Shown here: positions 44,017 to 46,581 of the stretch, in pieces
How positions within the stretch are numbered: the stretch's first letter is position 1
How the letters are laid out: each line of letters opens with the position of its first letter
Assembly (NCBI GenBank): GCA_020848745.1
Contig: JADLHM010000038.1
Coordinates: 1-64,000, forward strand
DNA: 64,000 bases
Direction of reading: 5' to 3'
DNA from: Deltaproteobacteria bacterium
GTDB taxonomy: Bacteria > Desulfobacterota > Binatia > UTPRO1
The notes under the pieces: generated by a model
What the model was told of the DNA's origin: nothing
What the model saw: the letters and a program-made list of their open reading frames with translations, nothing else
The model's database searches: none
Translations under genes and position numbers: made by a program

Positions 44017-46581
44017 ATGCAAAAAATGATATTGGTTGATGGGTGTCGTTTCGTATGTGCGATGATATGTCGTCGCGCCGCGATGGGCGCGCTCGTCGCC
44101 GCCGCGCTCCTCGCCGCGGGCCTGCGCGGCACGCCCGCGCTGGCCGCGGAGGCGACCCTCACGAGTCTTGGGGTCGGGCTCTACGGCGCCGTGACCGGCA
44201 CCACCGGCGGTCCGGTCGAGACGCAGGACTTCGCGGGCACGTTCCACATCTCGATCGACGGCGGCGCGTCGACCGAGGCCTACTGCGTCGACCTCCACAA
44301 TCCGCTGACCTTCGGCGACGCGCAGCCGCAGGTTCCGCCCGACTATCCGTGCGAGGTCGTCCACATTCTCGGCAACGCCTATCCGAACCCGGGCACGATC
44401 GGGTCGCCGCTCGCCGACACCCCCCGTGAGGCGGCCGCGGTCCAGGCGGCGATCTGGTACTTCACCGACGGGTTCGTCGTCACGGGCCCGGCGGATGTCC
44501 AGGCGCGGGCCGCCGAGATCATCGACATCGCCGGAGACCAGTGCGGCCAGGTGCCGGCGGTGCCGCACGAGCTGACGCTCTCGCCCGCCGACGCGACCAA
44601 CTACCTCCCGGGCGAGGAGGCGCACACGGTCACCGCGACGTTGCGCGACACCCAGGGGCAGCCCGTGCCCGGCCACGCCGTCCAGGTGACGATCGCGGGC
44701 GCCGCCGGCCCGCAGGTGTTCCAGGGTTTCACGGATGCGCAGGGCGACTTCGTCGTGACCTACGAGAACGGGCTCCAGGTGCCCGGGACCGACACGATCA
44801 GCGCGACCGCTTCGTTCACGGTCCCCGTCGGCCTGAAGTTCAAGGCCGAGGGGCTCCAGGGCATCGTCGTCGCCGGCGCGCCGCGCCCCGGCACCGTCAC
44901 CGGCACCGCGACCAAGCATTGGGTGCCGGCTGCGTGCGGTGACGGCGTTGTCAACCAGGCCGGCGAAGAGTGCGACGACGGCAACCTCGCCGACGGCGAC
45001 GGCTGCGACCACACCTGCGCGCCGACGGCGTGCGGCAACGGCGTCGTGACCGGCGGCGAGCTCTGTGACGACGGCAACCTTCTCGACGGCGACGGCTGCG
45101 ACGGCGACTGTACGCCGACCGCCTGCGGCAACGGCATCGTCACGATCGGGGAAGAGTGCGACGACGGCAACACGGTGAACGGCGACGAGTGCGATGCCAA
45201 CTGCACGGCTCCGCGGTGCGGCAACGGCGTCGCCGGCCCGGGCGAGCAGTGCGACGATGGCAACGCGACCAACGGCGACGGCTGTGACGCCAACTGCACC
45301 GTCAGCGCCTGCGGCAACGGCGTGGTGACGGCGGGTGAGCAGTGCGACGACGGCAATCAGGTCGACGGCGACGCGTGCGACGCGAACTGCACTGCCACCG
45401 CGTGCGGCAACGGCATCGTCACCGCGGGCGAGCAGTGCGACGACGGCAACGCGGTGAACGGCGACGGTTGCGACGCCAACTGCACCGCCAGCGCCTGCGG
45501 CAACGGCATCGTCGCCGGCGCCGAGCAGTGCGACGACGGCAACGCGGTGAACGGCGACGGTTGCGATGCCAACTGCACCACCAGCGCCTGCGGCAACGGC
45601 GTGGTGACGGCGGGTGAGCAGTGCGACGACGGCAACGCGGCGGACGGCGACGGCTGCGACGCCAACTGCACCGTCACGGCCTGCGGCAACGGCGTCGTCA
45701 GCGCGGACGAGCAGTGCGACGACGGCAACCTCGCGAGCGGCGACGCGTGCGACGCCAACTGCACGCTCCCCGCGTGCGGCAACGGCATCGTGACGGCCGG
45801 CGAGCAGTGCGACGACGGCAACCAGGTCGACGGCGACGGCTGCGATCACGACTGCACCTCGACCGGCTGTGGCAACGGCATCGTCACCGGCGACGAGCAG
45901 TGCGACGACGGGAACCAGGCCGACGGCGACCTCTGCGAGGCCGACTGCACGGCCGCGCGGTGCGGCAACGGCATCCTCGACCAGGGCGAGCAGTGCGACG
46001 ACGGTCATCTGCAGGGCGGCGACGGGTGCGACGCCACCTGCCGCCTGCAGGAGGTCTGCACCAACACCGTCGACGACGACGGCGACGGCGCGATCGACTG
46101 CGACGACACCGATTGCGCCTGCCTCCAGATCCAGCGCGATCCGGCGGTCATCCGCTTCGCCCACCGCCAACCGAAGTCGTCGCGGATGCGCACCCGCCCC
46201 GACTTCTTCCGGGTCCACGGCCGCCTCGAGCCGAAGACCGCGCACGACGCGCTCACGGAGGGACTCACCCTCGTGGTCACGAACACGAACGGCGTGATCT
46301 ACCAGGCGCGCCTTCTTCCGGGCGATCTCCAGAAGCACTGGTCGACGCTGTCGTTCGTCGACAAGGCGGCGGCGCGCGGTGAGGGCGAGCGCGACGGTCT
46401 CTACCGCGTGAAGCTGCGGCGCGGCGTCCGCGACAGCCTCTTCGTGGTGATCGAGGCGTACGGCGACTTCAGCGCCGCGACGCTGCCGACCATGACGATC
46501 CAGATCGGCATCGGCGACGACATGTTCTACACCAAAGGCGCGTTCTCGGCGCGCCGCTACGGCTGGTACTGGGCGTTCTGA
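44017..46581 (+). CDS. Putative thioester-domain adhesin with twelve four-cysteine repeats
   Basis: This 854-residue exported protein has a signal core GALVAAALLAAGL. Residues about 45-175 look like a thioester domain. C90 in TEAYCVDLHNP and Q143 in AVQAAIWYFTDGF match the YC and Q-x-AIW pair that forms a Cys-Gln thioester in Gram-positive adhesins. An Ig-like Big-1-type domain (VTATLRDTQGQPVPGHAVQV) spans about 190-290. Twelve Myxococcus-type repeats of 31 residues (CGNGIVTAGEQCDDGN, then DGCDANC) lie at about 306-678, with DDDGDGAIDCDDTDC next. A beta-rich C-terminal domain (VVTNTNGVIYQARLLPG) like that of the 5172 protein ends the chain. ATG 44017 follows GAGGGA; ATG 44062 is possible. Role in attachment to a surface or host is inferred. 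Confidence 0.85.
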   Translation: MQKMILVDGCRFVCAMICRRAAMGALVAAALLAAGLRGTPALAAEATLTSLGVGLYGAVTGTTGGPVETQDFAGTFHISIDGGASTEAYCVDLHNPLTFGDAQPQVPPDYPCEVVHILGNAYPNPGTIGSPLADTPREAAAVQAAIWYFTDGFVVTGPADVQARAAEIIDIAGDQCGQVPAVPHELTLSPADATNYLPGEEAHTVTATLRDTQGQPVPGHAVQVTIAGAAGPQVFQGFTDAQGDFVVTYENGLQVPGTDTISATASFTVPVGLKFKAEGLQGIVVAGAPRPGTVTGTATKHWVPAACGDGVVNQAGEECDDGNLADGDGCDHTCAPTACGNGVVTGGELCDDGNLLDGDGCDGDCTPTACGNGIVTIGEECDDGNTVNGDECDANCTAPRCGNGVAGPGEQCDDGNATNGDGCDANCTVSACGNGVVTAGEQCDDGNQVDGDACDANCTATACGNGIVTAGEQCDDGNAVNGDGCDANCTASACGNGIVAGAEQCDDGNAVNGDGCDANCTTSACGNGVVTAGEQCDDGNAADGDGCDANCTVTACGNGVVSADEQCDDGNLASGDACDANCTLPACGNGIVTAGEQCDDGNQVDGDGCDHDCTSTGCGNGIVTGDEQCDDGNQADGDLCEADCTAARCGNGILDQGEQCDDGHLQGGDGCDATCRLQEVCTNTVDDDGDGAIDCDDTDCACLQIQRDPAVIRFAHRQPKSSRMRTRPDFFRVHGRLEPKTAHDALTEGLTLVVTNTNGVIYQARLLPGDLQKHWSTLSFVDKAAARGEGERDGLYRVKLRRGVRDSLFVVIEAYGDFSAATLPTMTIQIGIGDDMFYTKGAFSARRYGWYWAF
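44932..46050 (+). repeat. Twelve tandem 93-bp coding repeats (four-cysteine units)
   Basis: Units of 93 bp encode CGNG-x9-CDDGN-x6-CD-x2-C with four cysteines each. Copies 5 to 8 are nearly identical, while the first and last are more divergent, the pattern expected from unequal exchange in the middle of an array. The near-identity makes copy number a likely strain variable and a risk for assembly collapse. Confidence 0.93.

Follow-up and report, generated by a model that had tools for sequence, protein, structure and literature searches.

The window analysed here, a 64,000-nucleotide stretch of a contig from an uncultured Binatia-type deltaproteobacterium, contains an open reading frame at positions 44017–46578 of the plus strand (stop codon to 46581) that encodes a protein of 854 amino acids (Table 1). 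As the original prediction had described, the protein carries C90 within AYCVDLHN, Q143 within AVQAAIWYF, an Ig-like domain and twelve Myxococcus-type repeats, and a Pfam search confirms the thioester domain (TED; PF08341) proposed for its N-terminal tip. The TED match covers residues 88–157 and scores 32.7 bits against a cut-off of 22 (E = 1.1 × 10−7; 36.5 bits in the genome search). Pfam Big_1 matches residues 199–265 slightly below its cut-off of 34.9 when the full protein is scanned (32.6 bits) and slightly above it on the head alone (35.1 bits); the NCBIfam TQXA model (TIGR03934) scores 30.0 bits in the full protein against a cut-off of 30.4, and 32.2 bits on the head alone. Downstream, twelve stretches match Pfam DUF4215 (E = 2.3 × 10−64) and twelve match NCBIfam myxo_disulf_rpt (TIGR02232; 310.5 bits, above the model cut-off). 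This domain make-up is far beyond chance, and routine annotation can reveal the thioester domain, since existing Pfam and NCBIfam models recognise it. No CnaA/B or DUF11 isopeptide or ester stalk domain was found in the protein by the Pfam scan, and the NCBIfam scan gave no match to the T9SS type A sorting domain (TIGR04183). The protein lacks LPXTG and ends in YGWYWAF. Relative to the closest ortholog, the head of which is 86% identical, dN/dS is 0.26 for the whole gene and 0.28 for the head, and the gene is therefore under purifying selection.

Table 1. Parts of the 854-residue protein and their positions in the window
Feature	Residues	Position	Strand	Basis
Predicted signal peptide (…GTPALA/AEA)	1–43	44017–44145	+	Read from sequence; cleavage site inferred
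N-terminal TED lobe: β-barrel strands and helices α1–α3	44–183	44146–44565	+	Pfam TED at 88–157; AlphaFold2 secondary structure; VIA alignment to 6fwv, 6fwy, 5a0g and 5a0l
Predicted thioester Cys, YCVD in [YFL]CΦζ motif	C90	44284–44286	+	Conservation
Helix Gln in VQAAIW (TQxxΦW type), distinct from the predicted bond partner	Q143	44443–44445	+	Conservation; PMC4450167, PMC6194298
Ig-like (Big_1) β-sandwich, inserted between α3 and strands P/Q	184–256	44566–44784	+	Pfam Big_1; AlphaFold2 strands; fold match to class II TEDs across the insertion
C-terminal P/Q β-hairpin, returning to the TED lobe, with invariant W302	257–304	44785–44928	+	AlphaFold2 strands at model residues 227–239 and 253–273; alignment
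Predicted thioester Gln, LQGIV in ΦQζΦΦ	Q281	44857–44859	+	Invariance; joint loss with C90; structural register
Twelve DUF4215/TIGR02232 four-cysteine repeats, predicted stalk	307–677	44935–46047	+	Pfam; NCBIfam
Asp/Cys-rich motif VCTNTVDDDGDGAIDCDDTDCAC	680–702	46054–46122	+	Sequence; conserved in L014, L017, L018, L019 and L077
C-terminal Ig-like β-sandwich	708–854	46138–46578	+	

Two further cysteines of the head, C112 (44350–44352) and C176 (44542–44544), occur together in this protein and in the related locus L018. L014 has cysteine placed similarly, and a lineage-specific disulfide is possible.

The predicted Gram-negative nature of the host is supported by LptD, encoded in the same genome, and by a Porin_O_P gene on the same contig. 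The porin gene and the orthologs present in two further genomes of this genus led us to reject contamination by a Gram-positive contig. The TED occurs once in the genome of the window protein and in 11 of 193 related genomes, its own included. No match to Sortase (PF04203) was found in the genome, which excludes sortase anchoring. The neighbouring genes encode a GT87 protein, a PAS histidine kinase, SnoaL, TetR, a thiolase and a porin, a mixture that makes the neighbourhood uninformative on function.

The last repeats and the C-terminal domain were also modelled with AlphaFold2. The repeats have pLDDT values under 50, and the C-terminal domain is modelled as an Ig-like sandwich of a common kind that lacks a specific structural relative: the best Foldseek E value is 0.053, and the best VIA Z score, 8.0, is within the range seen without true relatives. 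This β-sandwich is common to the C-terminal ends of four proteins of the genome, the others being L077, L078 and L079 (weakest match, E = 0.009), and is a candidate sorting or anchoring module. The N-terminal parts of the four proteins are unrelated, and in each the sandwich follows cysteine-rich repeats.

The head has a class II thioester-domain fold in the predicted structure

An AlphaFold2 model of the head was built on an alignment of 24 heads (described below), giving a pLDDT of 92.5 and a pTM of 0.85; residue 251 of the model corresponds to Q281. The best PDB matches found by Foldseek are the class II TEDs 6FWY (E = 1 × 10−10) and 6FWV (E = 9 × 10−10), and the hits include the class I TEDs 4c0z and 5a0l as well. 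VIA aligned model residues 14–274 to 6fwv (Z = 15.1, 236 residues, rmsd 10.0) and to 6fwy (Z = 12.7, 230 residues, rmsd 9.3). The high rmsd of these full-length matches suggests that the lobe and the Ig domain are tilted differently in the model from their arrangement in the two crystal structures. Class I lobes align with Z scores of 10–11.5 and rmsd values of 3.0–3.6. Matches that comprise the lobe and the final strand include 5a0g (Z = 11.5, 141 residues, rmsd 3.2), 5a0l (Z = 10.1, 141 residues, rmsd 3.4) and 6fx6 (Z = 10.7, 139 residues, rmsd 3.7). The Ig part alone also matches complement and invasin Ig domains, with Z scores of 10–13. When the PDB was searched by sequence with the single protein, only 4c0z was returned (E = 2.8), and a profile search performed better.

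Class II TEDs carry an Ig-like sandwich between the third helix and the last, Gln-bearing hairpin (PMC6194298). The model has this order of elements, with the Ig β-sandwich between α3 and the P/Q hairpin. Moreover, there is no helix α0 between strand D and α1, as in class II: a strand at model residues 72–76 is followed by a helix at 82–90 with none between them. The head is thus almost certainly a member of the class II TED fold.

Q281 is the most likely bonding glutamine

The original prediction paired C90 with Q143. In known TEDs, however, the bonding Gln lies in a weak β-strand motif, ΦQζΦΦ, near the end of the domain (Walden 2015, PMC4450167; Miller 2018, PMC6194298), and the Gln of the helical TQxxΦW motif is dispensable for the thioester (PMC4450167, PMC6194298). 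AVQAAIWYF is a helix of the TQxxΦW type, in which VQAAIW falls on model helix 105–121 and Val replaces the Thr, whereas Q281 lies in LQGIVVAG, downstream of the Ig-like domain. C90 and Q281 are 191 residues apart, and the spacing ranges from 180 to 210 across the relatives. These values are close to the published Cys–Gln spacings, which are 188 in TIEpLS20 (Cys68–Gln256, in the motif YQRLM; PMC8092201), 204 in EfmTIE86 and 171 in SaTIE (PMC6194298), and YQRLM resembles the family motif xQKLVLA. An hhalign comparison of the 24-head alignment with the single TIEpLS20 sequence was weak (E = 0.0098, probability 4%), covered the Cys region only and did not reach the Gln.

The structural register points to the same residue. 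The final pairs of the VIA alignments are 259:275 in 5a0g, 260:270 in 5a0l, 262:586 in 2xid and 263:587 in 2xic. If one counts backwards from these pairs and allows no gaps, model residue 251 falls on 267 in 5a0g, 261 in 5a0l and 575 in both 2xid and 2xic. The bonding glutamines are Gln267 in CpTIE and Gln261 in SfbI (PMC4450167), and Gln575 in Cpa (PMC4282584). Q281 would therefore lie opposite the bonding Gln of all three proteins, a register read from the ends of the aligned ranges with the last 8–12 residues assumed to be gap-free; in the mutant structures 5a0d and 4bug it is off by one residue. In the model Q281 sits at the edge of a strand rather than inside it, with strands 253–255 and 260–273 beginning just past residue 251.

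Conservation was followed in alignments of increasing breadth. Heads of ten related proteins were aligned first, and fourteen heads from a scan of one genome per species (84,980 species) extended the set to 24, drawn from Binatia-type deltaproteobacteria, Thiomargarita and Albibeggiatoa, Ignavibacteria/Melioribacteraceae and Anaerolineae. All 24 match Pfam TED at E ≤ 0.01. Eleven positions are invariant (G74, C90, E138, A140, Q143, W147, D151, R164, G272, Q281 and W302), with C90, W147 and Q281 retained across at least four lineages at identities down to 23%. Among 118 distinct heads, Q143 and W147 are present in every one; C90 and Q281 are each present in 109, and 107 have both.

The exceptions are informative about which residues belong together. 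One frameshifted head and all near-identical rows were removed, and of the 115 heads left, eight lack the Cys. Seven of these eight also lack Q281, and all retain Q143. The joint loss of the Cys and Q281 is the strongest association among 20 conserved columns (Fisher p = 6.5 × 10−9, with relatedness ignored), followed by that of D151 (3 × 10−6). In two heads the Cys is present but Q281 is not, and in one the reverse holds. Because the Cys-less heads fall mostly in one clade of tandem paralogues with weak tree support, the independent losses may number only two or three. The direction is nonetheless clear, in that Q281 departs along with the Cys and Q143 stays.

These results suggest that the bonding Gln is most likely Q281 rather than Q143, and we consider it likely that C90 and Q281 form the thioester. 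Because this Gln lies beyond the Ig-like domain, that domain would be the class II insertion within the TED; its presence was correctly predicted, but the model and the class II match do not support treating it as a module in its own right, attached to the TED.

Related heads in other lineages

The head family is not a one-off but occurs in Binatia, Ignavibacteria, Beggiatoales and Anaerolineae. By profile search, heads were found in 52 of 245 genomes in the class of Stygiobacter, in 26 of 249 in the class of Anaerolineales HSG25 and in 2 of 43 in the order of Albibeggiatoa. Binatia-type heads are carried on DUF4215 repeats in the window protein, L013, L014 and L016–L019, and on SdrD_B in L015; L020 and L022, judged by eye, have EGF-like cysteine-rich repeats in this place. 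At their C-terminal ends, the Ignavibacteria members that were scanned carry the type A sorting domain of the T9SS, with scores of 39.5, 36.5 and 35.8 bits against a cut-off of 23, which places these relatives on a known surface-export route.

Several side observations concern individual groups of heads. In L040 (the head from Stygiobacter electus strain 09-Me) and L042, both from Ignavibacteria, a TED head is combined with DUF11 repeats, a choice-of-anchor A domain and a T9SS tail. Since DUF11 has been shown experimentally to be an isopeptide domain (PMC12617251), these two proteins resemble diderm TIE proteins. L154–L163 (G508:C373, G535:C68, G570:C76, G593:C3, G616:C104, G643 and G681) are tandem arrays of head proteins of about 470 amino acids; one scanned L154 copy has a T9SS sorting domain and the tails of the other copies are similar by eye. 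In some of these copies the Cys is replaced by Ser and Q281 by Pro, which has a Cys beside it (CPK); such copies are either degenerate or changed in function. Head genes are split between frames in L021/L030 (G080:C2) and in L023/L048/L074 (G012:C1), as a result of assembly frameshifts or as pseudogenes.

Other genomes of the phylum encode short secreted proteins (L050, L051, L053, L057 and L060; open frames of 212–297 amino acids) with YC[VA]D, a helix Q..[IL]W and a late AQNILV/HQDVLFV 98–117 residues past the Cys, and these end in PEP-CTERM (exosortase) signals. L057 passes the Pfam TED cut-off (30.3 bits), L060 falls below it and L053 has no match. From their motifs, these proteins are putative class I-like thioester domains in diderms.

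Discussion

The window protein is probably of the fibrillar-adhesin type, secreted by its diderm host and tipped by a class II TED with a C90–Q281 thioester. On contact with a ligand, a nucleophile such as a Lys amine would attack the thioester carbonyl, and a covalent bond would then link Q281 to the target. The head would be kept at a distance from the cell by the twelve disulfide-rich repeats, with the C-terminal β-sandwich at the base. That covalent adhesion of this sort takes place in nature is plausible, and we lean towards it.

The alternative that fares best shares this chemistry and differs in the target: a working thioester might serve cell–cell or matrix cross-linking rather than adhesion to a host or surface. 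Environmental metagenome bins are the source of the related heads, and the class II TED of TIEpLS20 serves mating-pair contact (PMC8092201), a precedent for such a role; however, no conjugation genes adjoin the window gene, and we regard cross-linking as possible but unlikely. More doubtful still is a class II fold that forms no thioester and binds non-covalently, with C90 free or in a disulfide with C112 or C176. The head does have these two extra cysteines, and some paralogues with Ser and Pro at the Cys and Gln positions have been kept. By contrast, C112 is found in only 12 of the 118 heads and C176 in 6, so C90, at 109, is not conserved as their disulfide partner, and the joint loss of C90 and Q281 is a further argument for a thioester. 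Finally, a C90–Q143 bond is highly improbable: the two residues are invariant in the 24 heads, as the homologue check attached to that proposal anticipated, and would be neighbours in any TED, but in known TEDs the helix Gln adjoins the thioester and owes its conservation to other causes, so that tests of proximity or conservation would pass falsely, and the pair is rejected on published mutagenesis (this Gln is dispensable for the bond in Cpa; PMC4450167), on motif position and on the retention of Q143 in every Cys-less head.

The window protein belongs to a kind already known, the class II TEDs of TIE proteins (BaTIE, 6FWV; EfmTIE86, 6FWY; SaTIE, 6FX6; and TIEpLS20). It has in common with them the Cys motif, the helical Gln/Trp motif, the Ig insertion between α3 and the P/Q hairpin, a ΦQζΦΦ Gln about 190 residues past the Cys and an N-terminal position after a signal peptide. 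Unlike TIE proteins, it comes from a diderm host that lacks sortase, its stalk consists of twelve DUF4215 repeats in place of isopeptide or ester domains, and it ends in a β-sandwich, not LPXTG. Class I TEDs (SfbI, Cpa and CpTIE) have the same upper lobe fold and register of bonding residues, but they lack the Ig insertion, possess α0 and belong to a Gram-positive pilus or fibronectin-binding context. The diderm DUF11/CLIPPER adhesins (PMC12617251), whose DUF11 domain accompanies a TED head in L040 and L042, are likewise covalently cross-linked fibrillar adhesins of Gram-negative bacteria; their bond, however, is an isopeptide rather than a thioester, and is structural rather than target-capturing. 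The twelve-repeat stalk is that of Myxococcus-type cysteine-rich repeat proteins (TIGR02232/DUF4215), and in the open-licence PMC literature that was searched none of these is described with a thioester head.

In the founding survey (PMC4450167), TEDs turned up "exclusively in Gram-positive bacteria". Among open-licence PMC papers, we found none on diderm thioester domains and none in which "thioester domain" appears together with "type IX secretion". What is new here is a class II TED in a diderm on a stalk undescribed for TEDs. More broadly, it seems rather likely that covalent adhesion by thioesters is widespread in diderms, in Binatia, Ignavibacteria, Beggiatoales and PEP-CTERM lineages, with non-sortase routes that include the T9SS and, in places, tandem arrays of paralogues. 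The two residues to be tested, C90 and Q281, can now be named, with the warning that the conspicuous, conserved Gln of TQxxΦW is the wrong residue to mutate. A diderm branch of the family would uncouple covalent capture from sortase anchoring and isopeptide stalks, and would offer a non-pathogen model of TED chemistry behind an outer membrane and in an oxidising periplasm.
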